Below, piece by piece: positions 12,539 through 22,599 of a stretch of 22,676 bases of DNA. The notes under the pieces were generated by a model. The model did not search any database. It saw only the letters and a list, made by a program, of their open reading frames with translations, and had not been told where the DNA came from. The stretch spans positions 11,921-34,596 of the forward strand of contig DEHW01000224.1 in assembly GCA_002352135.1 (NCBI GenBank), read 5' to 3'. A program made the translations under genes and the position numbers. The DNA comes from Lysobacterales bacterium UBA2790. Its GTDB lineage: Bacteria > Pseudomonadota > Gammaproteobacteria > Xanthomonadales > Xanthomonadaceae. Numbering within the stretch: position 1 is the stretch's first letter; every line of letters starts with the position of its first letter.

Positions 12539-13066
12539 ATGCACTGCCCGTTCTGCCAGCACGAAGACACCCGCGTCATCGACTCCCGAGTCAGCGATGA
12601 CGGTGCCAGCATTCGCCGACGTCGCGAATGCCCTTCCTGCGGCGAGCGTTTCTCCACCGTCGAAGTGGCCGAGTTGCGCCTGCCCTCGGTGATCAAGAGC
12701 GATGGCCGACGTGAACTGTTCGATGAGCGCAAGCTGCGCTACAGCTTCGAGCGCGCCCTGCAGAAGCGTCCGATCAGCGCGCACCAGATCGACCTCGCCG
12801 TACGTCAGGTGCAGAACGAACTTCGCCGCAACGGCGAGCGCGAAGTCGCCTCACGTCGCGTCGGTGAGTTCGTGATGGAACAACTCAAGCGGCTGGATGA
12901 AGTCGCCTATGTCCGTTTTGCCTCGGTGTATCGAAGCTTCCAGGACGTACAGGCGTTCCGCGAAGAAATCGAAAAACTCGAACGCGACCTGCCGGCCTCA
13001 CAAAGTTTGCCGCTGCCTCTCGAAGGCATGGAGCCACGACCGTTGCGTGGTCGTCGCGGTGCCTGA
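12539..13066 (+). CDS. nrdR: Transcriptional repressor NrdR
   Basis: NrdR represses ribonucleotide reductase genes by binding tandem 16-bp NrdR boxes, sensing ATP/dATP through its ATP-cone. The protein of 175 residues begins with a zinc ribbon: Cys3 and Cys6 (MHCPFC) and Cys31 and Cys34 (RECPSCG). Between them are [17 protein letters not shown], as in the family. Residues 49-139 are the ATP-cone ([28 protein letters not shown], then [13 protein letters not shown]). About 25 extra residues at the C-terminus (after the E. coli length of 149) are Pro/Arg-rich and probably disordered. It lies between glyA and the GNAT gene, 6 bases from the latter. Candidate target boxes lie in this window ahead of nrdA (19628-19675). 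Confidence 0.97.
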
Positions 13067-18418: not shown

Positions 18419-19507
18419 TCAGGGCTTGGCGCCATTCAAACGTGGCAACGAGGTCAAAGCCCCTTTTGGACCATCGATCAGGCGGTCGGCGATGCCGCCG
18501 CCAAGCCACATGCCGATCAGTGCCACCCACGCGGTCAGCGCAAATACCGAGCCACCGGTGATGCCTGCGCCCACCGCGCAGCCTCCGGCCATCATCGAGC
18601 CGAAACCCATCAACACCGCACCGATCACATAGCGCGGCACGCTGTAACCGGGACCGAAGGTCTCGACATGCCATTCCTTGCCGACCAGCGCTCCGATCAG
18701 CGAACCGAGAAACACTCCGGGCAACAGCCCCAAGGCAAAGGTCCATGGACCATCGGGCTCGATCAGCACGCGCATCAGCCAGTCAGACGATGGGCCACTG
18801 AAGGTGATGCCTTGAATCTGCACCGGCTCGAACGAGTTGTTCATGACGTTGTAGGTCGCCCACCAAGCCAGCGCGACCATCAATCCGGCACCGATGCCGC
18901 TGGCCCACTGCCAGACGCTACCGACCGCGCGATAGGCATAGAACAGCGCCGCGATGCCCCAGATCAGCCCGAAGGCCAAACCGCCCCAATGACCGACGCC
19001 CAGCAAGGCAAGGACATCGCGTGAACCGGCTTCCACTGTCCACCATCCGGCAATCGTTTCGCGCAAGGGCACCAGCACACCCTGACTGGCTGCCTGCGCC
19101 GCAACCGAAAACACCAAGCCAGCCAGCAAGGCACGCAGATTCCCATTGGCCGACAGAATCAACAGCCGACTGGCGCAGCCACGCGTCAGCACCATGCCGA
19201 TGCCGAACATCAGTCCACCCACCAGTGCACCCGACAGACTGCCCCGCGACGACAACTGGCGGGCGGTACTGACGTCCAGCCAGTCAAGCAGGATCATTGC
19301 TTGAATCGCCACCACCGCACTGGCAAATGACAAGAGCCACACCGCCAGCTTGTCGCCGAAATGCCCGTGCCAGAAGGCGACGACCGCTCCGCGCAAACAG
19401 AAGCGCGAGCGTTGCCCGAAGAATCCAAACCCCAAACCGACGATGGCACCGGTCATCGCCAGCACAGCCGGTTCACCCCAACGATCAATCCAGGCAGTCC
19501 AGTCCAT
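18419..19507 (-). CDS. YeeE/YedE family transporter, thiosulfate-uptake (TsuA) type
   Basis: The 362-residue protein is almost entirely hydrophobic helices and sits in the inner membrane. It matches the YeeE/YedE (sulphur transport) family, whose characterised member TsuA moves thiosulfate through a pore lined by cysteines. Three conserved Cys are visible: Cys37 in RSRFCLRG, Cys111 in LTRGCASR and Cys310 in MAGGCAVGAGITGGS. The first and second halves carry related Gly-rich motifs, as expected from an internal duplication. GAGG-like GAGGTGACAG ends at the ATG, with the core 6 bases away. No TusA-like (YeeD) partner is adjacent in the window. It is divergent from nrdA; its promoter must lie between 19508 and about 19630. 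The exact substrate (thiosulfate or another sulphur or selenium species) is inference. Confidence 0.9.
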   Translation of the reverse strand: MDWTAWIDRWGEPAVLAMTGAIVGLGFGFFGQRSRFCLRGAVVAFWHGHFGDKLAVWLLSFASAVVAIQAMILLDWLDVSTARQLSSRGSLSGALVGGLMFGIGMVLTRGCASRLLILSANGNLRALLAGLVFSVAAQAASQGVLVPLRETIAGWWTVEAGSRDVLALLGVGHWGGLAFGLIWGIAALFYAYRAVGSVWQWASGIGAGLMVALAWWATYNVMNNSFEPVQIQGITFSGPSSDWLMRVLIEPDGPWTFALGLLPGVFLGSLIGALVGKEWHVETFGPGYSVPRYVIGAVLMGFGSMMAGGCAVGAGITGGSVFALTAWVALIGMWLGGGIADRLIDGPKGALTSLPRLNGAKP

Positions 19508-19627: not shown

Positions 19628-19643
19628 GTCCAACATATTGGAT
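19628..19643 (+). promoter_or_regulatory. Candidate NrdR box 1 (distal)
   Basis: GTCCAACATATTGGAT contains the palindrome TCCAACATATTGGA and matches 9 of 10 positions of the central core of the published NrdR consensus (acaCwAtATaTwGtgt), with weaker outer positions. Its centre is exactly 32 bp from that of the second box, the three-helical-turn spacing typical of NrdR sites. It ends where the -35 hexamer begins. Confidence 0.75.
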
Positions 19644-19671
19644 TGACCATAAACGGAAACCACAATATCTT
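19643..19671 (+). promoter_or_regulatory. nrdA promoter (sigma70 type)
   Basis: TTGACC (19643-19648, 5 of 6 consensus) and TATCTT (19666-19671, 4 of 6) are separated by the optimal 17 bases. The predicted start is near 19677-19679, which coincides with the first bases of the riboswitch P1 stem. The -10 lies inside NrdR box 2 and the -35 touches box 1, so NrdR binding would occlude RNA polymerase. Confidence 0.7.
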
Positions 19672-19675
19672 GTGG
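19660..19675 (+). promoter_or_regulatory. Candidate NrdR box 2 (proximal)
   Basis: CCACAATATCTTGTGG matches 14 of 16 positions of the NrdR consensus and is the core of a longer perfect inverted repeat (AACCACAA, TATC, TTGTGGTT, 19658-19677). It overlaps the -10 of the nrdA promoter. The nrdR gene is at 12539-13066. Confidence 0.85.
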
Positions 19676-19676
19676 T

Positions 19677-19910
19677 TGTCGGTGTTTCTGGCGCCCGCCA
19701 GAAACCGAAGAGGGAAGCCGGTGTGAATCCGGCGCTGCCCCGCAGCGGTCAGCGGAAACGAACCCATCATTGGCACTGGGCCTTGGCCCGGGAAGCGATG
19801 GGCTAGGCGAAGTGCGAAACATGGCTGTCGCTCGCAGGCTGCTTTCCAACAGCCCACCTGCAACAGGCCGTCCCGCACTTCACGTCCGCAAGCCCGAAGA
19901 CCTGCCGACA
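19677..19910 (+). ncRNA. Cobalamin (B12) riboswitch upstream of nrdA
   Basis: The core GGGAAGCCGGTG, then AATCCGGC, then CTGCCCCGCAGCGGT (19712-19749) and the B12 box GAAGACCTGCC (19896-19906) are the defining conserved blocks. P1 pairs TGTCGG (19677-19682) with CCGACA (19905-19910). P2 is a 9-bp hairpin (GTTTCTGGC, loop GCCC, GCCAGAAAC, 19684-19705). An 8-bp stem, GAAGTGCG (19809-19816) with CGCACTTC (19874-19881), closes a peripheral arm that itself contains a GCAGGCTG/CAGCC hairpin. Adenosylcobalamin-type ligands normally switch such RNAs off. The only gene downstream in the same direction is nrdA, with a 256-base leader in between. Confidence 0.95.
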
Positions 19911-19950
19911 GACCGCGCTCATGCACACCGCGCGGTTACCGGCCATTCGG

Positions 19951-19966
19951 GTCTTCGCGGGAAGAC
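19951..19966 (+). other. Leader hairpin A between riboswitch and nrdA
   Basis: GTCTTC and GAAGAC pair around the loop GCGG. The apical 12 bases CTTCGCGGGAAG recur exactly at 20119-20130 in a second hairpin close to the start codon. The purpose is unknown. Confidence 0.4.
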
Positions 19967-19982
19967 GGTCGGAAATCCGCTG

Positions 19983-20004
19983 CGCCCCACGGCGTGGCGT
20001 TTTT
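19983..20004 (+). terminator. Possible riboswitch-linked attenuator
   Basis: A short GC stem (CGCC with GGCG, plus a C-G pair in the loop) is followed directly by five U residues (20000-20004), about 75 bases after the riboswitch. A competing 6-bp pairing, CACGGC (19988-19993) with GCCGTG (20007-20012), would disrupt it. This could be the expression platform, but the stem is short and the pairing is inference. Confidence 0.3.
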
Positions 20005-20111
20005 CTGCCGTGCTCACGTCGAGGATTCCGCAACGCCCGAGGGGGCGTGGTCGTGCCGCCTGCGCGTCCGCCTGTCGCCGACGCCCTGTGTCACGTCCGC
20101 GCGCGCTCGTA

Positions 20112-20137
20112 TCGACGGCTTCGCGGGAAGCCATCGA
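20112..20137 (+). other. Leader hairpin B near the nrdA ribosome binding site
   Basis: An 11-bp stem with one mismatch (TCGACGGCTTC with GAAGCCATCGA) carries the same GCGG loop and flanks as hairpin A. It ends 15 bases before the AGGAG site (20153-20157) of nrdA, so it could influence ribosome loading. Confidence 0.4.
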
Positions 20138-20166
20138 GCCTGTGCCTGACGCAGGAGTTGATCGCA

Positions 20167-22599
20167 ATGTCTTCCGTTGAATCCCTCAGCCGCACCGCCG
20201 TGACGGCCGCATCGCCCTCGATGGCCGAGTCGCATGCGTCCTTGCAGCTCACCCCACCCTATGCACCCGCCGCCATGAGCGTGACCAAACGCAATGGCCG
20301 ACGCGAGCCGGTAGACCTCAACAAAATCGTGCGCGCGGTGCAGCGCTGCAGCGACGGTCTGTACGCCGTGGACCCGATGCGCGTCGCCACCCGCACGATC
20401 TCCGGTTTGTACGACGGGGCCAGCACCCGCGAACTGGATGAACTGTCGATCCGCACGGCGGCACTGTTGACGGCAGAAGAACCCGAATACAGCCGACTGG
20501 CCGCTCGTTTGTTGGCGGCCTACATCGACAAGGAAGTCAGCGGCCAGGAGATTCATGCGTTCTCGCAATCGATCAGCCGAGGCCACGAACTCGGCCTCAT
20601 CAACACGCGCCTGCTCGGCTTCGTGCAAACCCATGCGCGCAAGCTCAACGCCGCGCTGAACGGTGCCTTTGACCGACACTTCGATTACTTCGGCCTGCGC
20701 ACCGTGTACGACCGCTACCTGCTGCGTCACCCGCACTCACGCAAGGTGATCGAAACGCCGCAGCAGTTTTTCCTGCGCATCGCCTGTGCGCTCAGCACGG
20801 ATGTCGCCGAAGCGCTGGCGCTGTACCAACGACTCGGCCATCTCGACTACATGCCCAGCTCGCCGACGCTGTTCAATGCAGGCACCACCCACGAGCAACT
20901 GTCGAGTTGCTTTCTGCTCGACTCGCCACAGGATTCGCTGCAGTCGATCTACCAACGCTATGGCGACATTGCCCAGCTCAGCAAATTCAGTGGTGGCATC
21001 GGTGTGTCGTGGACCCGCGTACGCTCGCGTGGCTCGCTGATCCGCTCGACCAATGGTCACAGCAACGGCATCGTGCCTTGGCTGAAGACGCTCGACTCCT
21101 CGGTGGCCGCCGTCAATCAGGGCGGCAAGCGCAAAGGCGCGGCCTGCGTCTATCTGGAAACCTGGCACGCCGACATCGAGGACTTTCTGGAGTTGCGCGA
21201 CAACACCGGCGATGAATCGCGGCGCACCCACAACCTCAACCTGGCCAACTGGGTGCCCGACCTGTTCATGCAGCGCGTCGAAGCCGACCAGGACTGGTCG
21301 TTGTTCGATCCGCGAGTCGTACCCGAGCTGACCGACCTGTACGGCAGCGACTTCGAGCACGCCTATCGACAGGCCGAAGCGCAGGGCAAGGCCAGCAAGA
21401 CCGTCCCGGCGCGCAAGCTCTACGCGCGCATGCTGCGCACGCTGGCCGAAACCGGCAACGGCTGGATGACCTTCAAGGATCATTGCAACCGCAGCAGCAA
21501 CCAGACCGCCAAGCCCGGAAACGTCATCCATCTGTCGAACCTCTGCACTGAGATTCTGGAGGTCACCTCCGATGGCGAAACCGCCGTCTGCAATCTGGGC
21601 TCGATCAATCTCGTGCACCACCTCGATAGCGAGGCCGATCAGGGCCGCAGCGAGTTTGATTTCGGCAAATTGGCCGAAACCGTGCGGCTCGCCGTGCGCC
21701 AGCTTGATCGCGTCATCGACCTCAACTTCTACCCCATCGACAGCGCACGCCGCGGCAATTTGCGCTGGCGTCCGGTCGGCCTGGGCTGCATGGGCTTGCA
21801 GGACGTGCTGTTCCGCCTGCGTCTGCCCTTCGACAGCGACGCGGCGCGAGATCTGTCCAAGCGCATCGCCGAAGAAATCTATTTCCACGCGCTGCAAGCG
21901 TCCTGTGAACTGGCCGAGGAACTCGGCGCCCACGCCGCCTTTGCCGACACCCGCGCGGCACGTGGCGAACTGCAGTTCGATGCCTGGGGCGTGGTCCCAG
22001 AAAACGCCGCACGCTGGGATGCACTGCGGCACCGCATCCAGCGGCACGGCTTGCGCAACTCGCTGCTGATTGCCATCGCCCCAACCGCAACGATTGCCTC
22101 GATATGCGGCTGCTACGAGTGCATCGAGCCGCAGGTCAGCAATCTGTTCAAACGCGAAACACTCTCCGGCGACTTCCTGCAGGTCAATCGCCATCTGGTG
22201 CAGGAGCTCAAGCAGCTCGGTCTGTGGACGGCGGAGATCCGCGACGCCATCAAACTCGCCGATGGCTCCATCCAAGGCATCGACGCGATTCCCGCCAACC
22301 TGCGGAAGATCTATCGCACCGCGTGGGAATTGCCGATGCGCGCACTGCTGGACATGGCCGCTGATCGGGGTGCCTTCATCGACCAATCGGCCTCGCTCAA
22401 TCTGTTCATGGAAAGCCCCAGCATCGGCGCGCTGTCGTCGATGTACATGTACGCCTGGAAACGTGGCATCAAGACCACCTACTACCTGCGTTCTCGACCG
22501 GCAACCCGGATCACCAAGACCACGGTGAACGCCTACACACCCGCCGAGGCGATGAGCTGTTCACTGGAAAATCCGGATTCCTGCGAGGCTTGCCAGTGA
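20167..22599 (+). CDS. nrdA: Ribonucleoside-diphosphate reductase, class I alpha subunit
   Basis: NrdA is the catalytic subunit that reduces ribonucleotides to deoxyribonucleotides, using a radical generated by the beta subunit NrdB. The start at 20167 has AGGAG 9 bases upstream and gives 810 residues. About 37 extra N-terminal residues precede an ATP-cone (38-128, SVTKRNGRREPVDLNKIVRA), the allosteric activity site that responds to ATP and dATP. Catalytic residues are visible: Cys248 (SSCFLL), Asn458-Cys460-Glu462 (SNLCTEI) and Cys475 (AVCNLGSIN). Tyr772-Tyr773 (KTTYYLRSRP) is the radical-transfer pair of class I enzymes, and Cys806/Cys809 at the tail take electrons from thioredoxin or glutaredoxin. 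It is therefore B12-independent, although a B12 riboswitch precedes it. nrdB is not within the last 77 bases and presumably lies beyond the window. Confidence 0.96.
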   Translation: MSSVESLSRTAVTAASPSMAESHASLQLTPPYAPAAMSVTKRNGRREPVDLNKIVRAVQRCSDGLYAVDPMRVATRTISGLYDGASTRELDELSIRTAALLTAEEPEYSRLAARLLAAYIDKEVSGQEIHAFSQSISRGHELGLINTRLLGFVQTHARKLNAALNGAFDRHFDYFGLRTVYDRYLLRHPHSRKVIETPQQFFLRIACALSTDVAEALALYQRLGHLDYMPSSPTLFNAGTTHEQLSSCFLLDSPQDSLQSIYQRYGDIAQLSKFSGGIGVSWTRVRSRGSLIRSTNGHSNGIVPWLKTLDSSVAAVNQGGKRKGAACVYLETWHADIEDFLELRDNTGDESRRTHNLNLANWVPDLFMQRVEADQDWSLFDPRVVPELTDLYGSDFEHAYRQAEAQGKASKTVPARKLYARMLRTLAETGNGWMTFKDHCNRSSNQTAKPGNVIHLSNLCTEILEVTSDGETAVCNLGSINLVHHLDSEADQGRSEFDFGKLAETVRLAVRQLDRVIDLNFYPIDSARRGNLRWRPVGLGCMGLQDVLFRLRLPFDSDAARDLSKRIAEEIYFHALQASCELAEELGAHAAFADTRAARGELQFDAWGVVPENAARWDALRHRIQRHGLRNSLLIAIAPTATIASICGCYECIEPQVSNLFKRETLSGDFLQVNRHLVQELKQLGLWTAEIRDAIKLADGSIQGIDAIPANLRKIYRTAWELPMRALLDMAADRGAFIDQSASLNLFMESPSIGALSSMYMYAWKRGIKTTYYLRSRPATRITKTTVNAYTPAEAMSCSLENPDSCEACQ

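Follow-up and report, generated by a model that had tools for sequence, protein, structure and literature searches.

A predicted NrdR operator and a cobalamin riboswitch with repeated L13-like hairpins in the nrdA leader of a Lysobacterales bacterium

Results

The nrdA locus and its predicted NrdR operator

The window analyzed in this study is a stretch of 22,676 nucleotides from Lysobacterales bacterium UBA2790 (assembly GCA_002352135.1, contig DEHW01000224.1; all positions refer to this stretch), and our subject is the leader of its last gene, nrdA, in which a predicted NrdR operator is followed by a cobalamin (vitamin B12) riboswitch. The source genome belongs to the genus of Aquimonas voraii, in the order Lysobacterales and the NCBI family Lysobacteraceae; the assembly comprises 2.97 Mb in 246 contigs and is 76% complete. 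nrdA (20167 to 22599, plus strand) encodes the large subunit of an oxygen-dependent class I ribonucleotide reductase. Its product matched TIGR02506 with 733 bits (cut-off 341), and the C-terminal cysteines were read in the sequence (CSLENPDSCEACQ). The start at 20167 was picked because the Shine-Dalgarno sequence AGGAG precedes it, and the frame stays open for at least 82 codons upstream of this start (19921 to 20166). The window stops where its contig stops, directly after nrdA, and for this reason nrdB was not seen. The gene for NrdR, a Zn-ribbon/ATP-cone repressor, was found at 12539 to 13066 (plus strand; TIGR00244, 203.9 bits, above the curated cut-off), between glyA and ribD and 6.6 kb upstream of nrdA, as a preliminary description of this stretch had proposed.

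A promoter scan upstream of nrdA revealed a sigma-70-type promoter, TTGACC-17-TATCTT (19643 to 19671, plus strand), with the -35 hexamer at 19643 to 19648, a 17-bp spacer, and the -10 hexamer at 19666 to 19671. It was the sole promoter-like match between 19400 and 20300, where 0.1 would be expected by chance. NrdR boxes were scored against a 16-base consensus, for which a pair can reach a maximum of 32. A motif scan identified box 2 at 19660 to 19675 (plus strand; 14/16), overlapping the -10 hexamer, which lies inside it; box 1, at 19628 to 19643 (plus strand), is weak (10/16), and the -35 hexamer begins on its last base. With centres 32 bp apart, the two boxes reached a summed score of 24, the best in the window for any pair spaced by 31 to 33 bp; the next pair sharing no box scored 19, and none of 40 Markov shuffles reached 24 (maximum, 22). 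The preliminary description had placed two such boxes at a promoter with a 17-bp spacer, and had put the transcription start at the 5′ edge of the riboswitch. Both points were borne out, as the predicted start at about 19678, 7 bases past the -10 hexamer, falls within the 5′ strand of aptamer helix P1 (19677 to 19682).

When a 14-base box-2 pattern was searched in the source genome with at most one mismatch, it matched at this site alone. With two mismatches allowed, no excess was seen genome-wide (8 matches, compared with 26 for the reversed pattern), and one of the 8 matches lay upstream of nrdJ, the gene for the B12-dependent class II enzyme. Because two-mismatch matches are no commoner than those of the reversed pattern, single boxes prove little, and it is the pair that matters.

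Conservation was examined in the best 80 nrdA loci of named genomes, retrieved with the window NrdA. By title, these are mostly Stenotrophomonas, Pseudoxanthomonas, Lysobacter, Luteimonas, and Arenimonas, plus other genera and bins; one of them (L084) is a cyanobacterial record that looks chimeric. In 80/80 named loci the best box pair of the locus lay in the 950 bases upstream of nrdA, and no pair at any other place in these loci scored above 20. The canonical pair was the best pair in 75/80, 72 by position and L024, L066, and L074 by eye; these three are without the promoter pattern, and their box arrangement looks like the canonical one. In L026, L051, L059, L068, and L071, the best pair was made of box 2 and a downstream 16-mer. 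The promoter pattern was present in 78/81 leaders, and among those 78, box 2 scored at least 10 in 77 and box 1 at least 10 in 72. The offset of box 1 was also kept, with the -35 hexamer starting at base 16 (offset 15) of the box in 69/78 leaders. A second set from the nrdA search, 29 loci of relatives (L096-L124) whose species overlap partly with the named set, was scored in the same way. In 28/29 of these loci a pair upstream of nrdA scored 19 to 27 (L119 was weak, with 19), with the next best at 15 to 19; no box pair was found upstream of nrdA in L124, whose NrdA is 47% identical. NrdR control may be weaker in L026, L068, and L071 (two of them Arenimonas by title), given their degenerate upstream box.

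NrdR-type boxes are present on nrdJ as well. Upstream of this gene, a pair spaced by 31-33 bp was the best pair in 20/20 relatives and in the source genome. With two boxes about 31-32 bp apart, centre to centre, over the promoter, with nrdR in the genome, and with boxes on nrdJ, the pair and its promoter geometry are predicted to form an NrdR operator that is conserved in the family.

A cobalamin aptamer follows the predicted operator and comes and goes among relatives

The preliminary description had also placed a complete cobalamin riboswitch before nrdA. A covariance search supported this, matching RF00174 at 19663 to 19923 (plus strand) with 111.5 bits (gathering score 31.5; E 1.5e-27) over the full length of the model (positions 1-189). 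This was the only Rfam match above gathering score in the window. The aptamer loop L5, a kissing partner, reads CCCCG (19738 to 19742, plus strand), and its pattern CTGCCCCGC occurs in 52/52 aptamer-bearing leaders; a first version of the L5 pattern was too strict and failed in most leaders, and a looser version was used for the counts. Beyond the aptamer, the leader runs for about 245 bases more before the ATG at 20167.

Of the named loci, 51/80 have a B12 box ahead of nrdA. RF00174 was confirmed in 11/11 B12-box loci falling among the 14 loci of one Rfam scan, and a whole-genome search of 40 genomes of B12-box loci placed an RF00174 match beside nrdA in 40/40 (positions read by eye). The leaders were accordingly divided into 52 aptamer-bearing leaders, including that of the window, and a comparison set of 29 aptamer-less leaders, 25 of which come from one Stenotrophomonas clade (the others are L016, L057, L060, and L073). 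An Rfam scan of all 29 aptamer-less loci gave no RF00174 match above gathering score. Readable aptamer relics were nonetheless seen in several of these loci (e.g., GAAGACCTACTGACAACCGCACGAAG in L029), and boxes and promoter persist there. As read from these leaders, the riboswitch is modular, the aptamer coming and going while the NrdR boxes and promoter stay.

The presence of the aptamer was next compared with that of nrdJ. In the source genome, nrdJ lies on contig C36 and is interrupted by a scaffold gap; its best family was TIGR02504, with 366.6 bits for a 439-residue piece, below the whole-protein cut-off of 399.95. The search for nrdJ (at least 80% identity) covered 78/80 named genomes, leaving out L016 and L085. 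nrdJ was present in 47/50 aptamer genomes (absent from L067, L084, and L090), compared with 1/28 aptamer-less genomes (L036). Placed on a tree, these data contained 4 changes of aptamer state and 3 independent pairs, of which a mean of 2.7/3 ran in the expected direction and none was opposed.

Among 60 relatives, a riboswitch was found just upstream of nrdA in 33/39 genomes with an assignable class I nrdA (positions read by eye; G007, with an unassigned 32% match, and G017, with a short match, are outside this count). nrdJ was found in 30/33 riboswitch genomes (the misses, G010, G026, and G032, are all less than 90% complete), compared with 1/6 genomes without the riboswitch (G040). The 33 riboswitch genomes span other families of the order (f2, f3, f5, f7, and f12) and include four whose class I NrdA is distant (35-37% identity), and for these reasons the association of aptamer and nrdJ may have arisen repeatedly. 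In these four (G004, G009, G030, and G032) the cobalamin riboswitch lies just upstream of the distant nrdA, which suggests repeated recruitment; G020 has an NrdA of the same distant kind and no cobalamin riboswitch upstream. As a separate observation, the nrdJ matches of L036, L066, L072, and L079 are split near query residues 40-48 within a single frame of 1139-1223 residues, as though the gene were interrupted by an intein.

The preliminary description had regarded the combination of NrdR boxes and B12 riboswitch as the most distinctive system of the window. The combination is present, and control of one transcript at both levels is indicated by the sequence and its relatives. The idea of an arrangement peculiar to the source organism was rejected, since the stack occurs throughout the family and also in other families of the order. 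Because it is this widespread, and has been published for Propionibacterium acnes, its distinctiveness is weaker than had been stated.

It might be argued that the riboswitch is a relic or inert in this genome, and that NrdR alone matters. The erosion of aptamers in several Stenotrophomonas that kept boxes and promoter would fit such a scheme, as would the lack of any RF00174 match above gathering score in the 29 aptamer-less loci. The aptamer of the window, however, is intact (111.5 bits), with L5, P13, and B12 box present, and its genome has nrdJ and, in addition, a second cobalamin riboswitch before a gene for a BtuB-like receptor (TIGR01779, 417.6 bits, below the cut-off of 599.7). We therefore consider an inert riboswitch highly improbable here.

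The expression platform contains three L13-like hairpins

Downstream of the aptamer lies an expression platform that was absent from the preliminary description, with a terminator-like hairpin and three hairpins resembling P13/L13 (all features on the plus strand). Directly after P1 comes a hairpin ACCGCGC/GCGCGGT (19912 to 19936), read from the sequence and kept in an alignment of 42 leaders. It is followed by H1 (19939 to 19972; loop CGCGGG), a two-part hairpin at the ordinary place of P13/L13, which occurs in 51/52 leaders and is missing in L067 alone. H2 (20033 to 20048), ACGCCC[GAGG]GGGCGT, is a second L13-like hairpin; its pattern CGCCC[GAGG]GGGCG was found mid-leader in 22/52 leaders, plus L067 and L090 by eye. 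H3 (20112 to 20137), GGCTTC[GCGG]GAAGCC, stands near the ribosome-binding site, about 30 bases before the Shine-Dalgarno sequence. The loops of H1, H2, and H3 all read CG-N-GGG, the complement of the L5 sequence CCCCG with a one-base bulge, a complementarity taken from the sequence only. Finally, a small hairpin CCTGTG/CGCAGG (20139 to 20157) overlaps the Shine-Dalgarno sequence AGGAG (20153 to 20157), and the GTGC part of it is nearly invariant.

Between H1 and H2, a terminator scan found hairpin T (19978 to 20004), which resembles an intrinsic terminator and is followed by a tract of five U residues that is not kept in most relatives. An intrinsic terminator as the general output of the riboswitch was rejected, given that hairpin and T run occurred together in only 3/52 leaders (the window, L023, and, weakly, L079); for the same reason, transcriptional control may be local or Rho-dependent. 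A conserved antiterminator formed by aptamer strands and hairpin T was looked for by eye in the window only and was set aside; the sequence of hairpin T is not conserved. Hairpin T (GCAGGG...CCCTGCGACGCC) is kept in the Stenotrophomonas maltophilia leaders L020, L033, and L042-L047, which are without aptamer, H1, and H3, and for this reason it may serve a separate function in the leader of nrdA. Upstream of the operator, a TsuA/YeeE-like membrane protein (76.9 bits, below cut-off) is encoded on the minus strand at 18419 to 19507, divergent from the nrdA leader.

L13-like hairpins accompany the aptamer

L13-like hairpins were counted by a rule requiring a CG-N0-2-GGG loop, which was fixed after the loops had been inspected. 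An earlier, looser rule accepted any loop with one of six 4-base words; it showed little excess (3.8 observed, compared with 3.0 shuffled) and was dropped. By the stricter rule, the 52 aptamer-bearing leaders contained a mean of 2.25 L13-like hairpins, with at least two in 48 and at least three in 15. Shuffles (n=2,600) gave a mean of 0.36, and segments taken elsewhere from these loci (n=1,040) a mean of 0.21. The aptamer-less leaders (n=29), most of which are close kin, averaged 0.66, and none had two. The nrdA leaders thereby depart from the usual description of one L13 per aptamer; their membership in the riboswitch family stands, because the single L13 belongs to that description and not to the Rfam definition.

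The H3 loop was then compared with that of H1. In the alignment, which took in 42 of the 52 aptamer-bearing leaders, the loop bases C, G, G, and G of H3 were invariant (42/42), as strict as those of H1, and the stems differed. A stem of at least 5 bp was present at H3 in 36/52 leaders (in L094 the hairpin is actually H2), compared with 20% of 2,318 other CGNGGG sites; at H1, anchored on the motif, such a stem was present in 50/52 (in L067 it is actually H2). CGNGGG occurred somewhere beyond H1 in 52/52 aptamer-bearing leaders. In the L096-L124 set, a B12 box was found in 26/29 loci, and all 26 carried CGNGGG beyond H1. Only 13/29 aptamer-less leaders contained CGNGGG anywhere, in nine as H1 relics, in L054 and L056 as aptamer relics, and in L016 and L073 elsewhere.

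For the region near the ribosome-binding site, start codons were called by Shine-Dalgarno sequence, and CGNGGG was sought 12-85 bases ahead of them. It was present in 48/52 aptamer-bearing leaders, 1/29 aptamer-less leaders, and 424/4,000 control windows. The four aptamer-bearing leaders without it were L091, L094, L072, and L075, and in the latter two the start codons look miscalled. At the CGCGGG of L016, the aptamer-less leader with the motif, no hairpin passed the CG-N0-2-GGG rule.

Other cobalamin riboswitches of these genomes (n=40; 34 before BtuB-like genes by tblastn and two before metE from the protein starts read) had 1.33 L13-like hairpins, compared with 2.23 for nrdA at equal length. 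A third L13 copy may be a feature of riboswitches of B12-independent isozymes. Before btuB, CGNGGG lay within 75 bases of the start in 19/33 leaders, compared with 402/4,000 control windows; a few of these starts look miscalled. This recurrence suggests that an L13 copy near the ribosome-binding site may be a wider habit of the order. Many btuB aptamers (among L125-L161) have an L5 with one extra C (CTGCCCCCGC) and an L13 loop GCGGAGGGC. L138 and L151 are cobalamin riboswitches as well; the product of the gene that follows them begins with MNxMxRVAxxxATVKLLIDG and by eye resembles aldehyde dehydrogenases of the methylmalonate-semialdehyde type.

These data bear on whether the extra hairpins are part of the sensor. 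In a simpler account, the leader is an ordinary stack, in which NrdR boxes are combined with a B12 riboswitch that has H1 as its only L13, and H2 and H3 merely resemble L13, for example as hairpins with GNGG loops that serve the ribosome-binding site or stabilize the message. H1 alone stands at the expected place of L13 and is kept in 51/52 leaders; the leaders are very GC-rich and fold stably; H2 is absent from about half of them; and L016 keeps the motif near the ribosome-binding site without an aptamer. Set against this are the invariance of the H3 loop bases in 42/42 leaders, the distribution of the proximal motif (48/52 aptamer-bearing vs 1/29 aptamer-less leaders), and its recurrence in 19/33 btuB leaders as opposed to 10% of control windows. 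Nor would one expect loss of the aptamer to take an unrelated hairpin with it, although a single Stenotrophomonas clade supplies most of the aptamer-less set. A single working L13 is possible, and we lean away from it.

GGA is the core of the CsrA/RsmA binding motif, and H1 and H3 could instead be binding hairpins for this protein, a third control based on a protein. Their loops often read AGGGA or CGGGA and so contain the GGA core, and csrA was found in 17/17 genomes searched. The GGA, however, often lies within the stem, and the H2 loops (GAGGGGGC and GCGGGGGC) are without it, so that it is not found in each loop. Nor are the hairpins retained wherever csrA is present: the motif near the ribosome-binding site is gone from 28/29 aptamer-less leaders, and csrA is kept in 12/12 such genomes searched. 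Because csrA is present there, the loss of hairpins is not explained by loss of CsrA. We regard CsrA/RsmA binding as improbable.

Discussion

We propose, with a probability of roughly 0.6, that the nrdA leader acts as a two-stage gate, with NrdR controlling at the DNA level and a B12 aptamer with tandem L13 loops controlling at the RNA level. In the first stage, when deoxynucleotides are plentiful, NrdR carrying deoxyadenosine triphosphate (dATP) and ATP would bind the two boxes, three helical turns apart; sitting on both, it would cover the -35 and -10 hexamers, and no transcript would start. In the second stage, a transcript starting at the first P1 base pairs would present the aptamer, which would read adenosylcobalamin. 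With B12 bound, L5 (CCCCG) would kiss the L13-type loops (CG-N-GGG). H1 would dock first, favouring termination at or after hairpin T; in messages that escape, docking of H2 and H3 close to the ribosome-binding site would keep the leader shut. With B12 present, the class I NrdA would thus be off and the B12-dependent class II NrdJ would work instead; without B12, the loops would not dock and nrdA would be made. Repression of the class I nrdA by B12 is what the gene class, together with published riboswitches of B12-independent isozymes, leads us to infer. Likewise, binding by NrdR, the identity of the ligand, the pairing of H2 and H3 with L5, and the succession in which the loops dock are predictions of the proposed gate.

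Several observations weigh against this proposal. At the operator, box 1 is weak in the window (10/16) and degenerate in L026, L068, and L071, where the promoter box is kept. In the platform, H2 is found in only about half of the leaders, the terminator-like hairpin with its T run in only 3/52, and hairpin T persists in S. maltophilia leaders without an aptamer. With respect to the docking loops, H1 relics persist in nine aptamer-less leaders, L016 has CGCGGG 41 bases before its start without an aptamer, L091 and L094 have an aptamer and no CGNGGG near the start, and the GC-rich tails contain the motif's reverse complement almost as often as the motif itself (6.9 vs 9.4 per kb). Finally, L036 has nrdJ yet no aptamer, and the association between aptamer and nrdJ cannot be significant because it contains only 3 independent pairs and 4 changes.

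A broader proposal, to which we give slightly less than an even chance, is that cobalamin riboswitches of the Lysobacterales use tandem L13 hairpins, a proximal P13 governing termination and one or two copies near the ribosome-binding site governing translation. Where the class II enzyme is lost, aptamer and extra hairpins would decay together and the NrdR operator would stay. If tandem L13 holds, a promoter gated by NrdR would be followed by two or three checkpoints in succession, all enforced by one sensor, which would so act at several points along one message. This family of leaders, in which the docking loop naturally occurs two or three times, and its aptamer-less close relatives as built-in mutants would allow one to ask whether one aptamer acts successively on transcription and translation. 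The introduction of PMC10653944 states that it was not known how the binding state of corrinoid riboswitches steers alternative structures of the expression platform; that work then studied one repressing and one activating transcriptional example. The stack may also serve as a proteobacterial model of the decision to use a B12-free or a B12-dependent ribonucleotide reductase.

Stacked NrdR and B12 control is itself a known kind of regulation, found here in a new group. For nrdAB of P. acnes, a mapped start, an nrd-box over the promoter, a cobalamin riboswitch, and what appears to be premature termination within the 5′ untranslated region have been described (PMC3848588). As in the window, an nrd-box on the promoter is combined with a cobalamin riboswitch; the P. 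acnes promoter has a single nrd-box, whereas the window has a tandem pair at 32 bp, and the parts of that paper drawn on here do not mention repeated L13 hairpins. In Streptomyces coelicolor, a B12 riboswitch likewise lies upstream of nrdA in the class Ia operon nrdABS (PMC3293853), and Streptomyces nrdAB has NrdR boxes on its promoter and is reported to be bound by NrdR, with class II nrdJ as a second target (PMC9110341). In this actinobacterium nrdR is joined to nrdJ, whereas here it lies between glyA and ribD. No report of repeated L13 hairpins was recognized in the portions of the nrdABS literature compared, which did not extend to Borovok 2006. In the open-access literature, older comparative papers not being covered, we recognized neither an account of nrdA preceded by a B12 riboswitch in the Lysobacterales nor a description of more than one L13 per aptamer.

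With respect to the operator, the NrdR tetramer with dATP and ATP is described as spanning two boxes three turns apart (PMC9110341, PMC12051234). The tandem boxes of Escherichia coli, Listeria, and Streptomyces resemble those of the window, with 15-16 bp between boxes and centres about three helical turns apart (PMC12051234, in the sections considered); there is no essential difference, apart from the weak box 1 here.

With respect to the sensor, L5 (consensus UCCCG) is reported to kiss L13 of hairpin P13 and thereby convey ligand binding (PMC10653944), and a bulge of one or two bases in the helix between these loops reportedly renders kissing dependent on ligand (PMC10907184). Since CG-N-GGG paired with CCCCG would contain such a bulge, the latter finding supports the docking proposed here; env8 likewise has a bulged interloop helix (PMC10907184). 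E. coli btuB, Priestia megaterium metE, and env8HyCbl share with the window the aptamer family, an L5 near UCCCG, and a CGGG-type L13 just past the aptamer (PMC10653944, PMC10907184). As far as the portions of these papers drawn on here describe them, these riboswitches have one L13 per aptamer. By comparison, the repeated L13-like loops of the nrdA leader appear to be new: judged from the sequence, its B12 sensor appears to offer two or three hairpins for docking where a single one is usual, including one near the ribosome-binding site.

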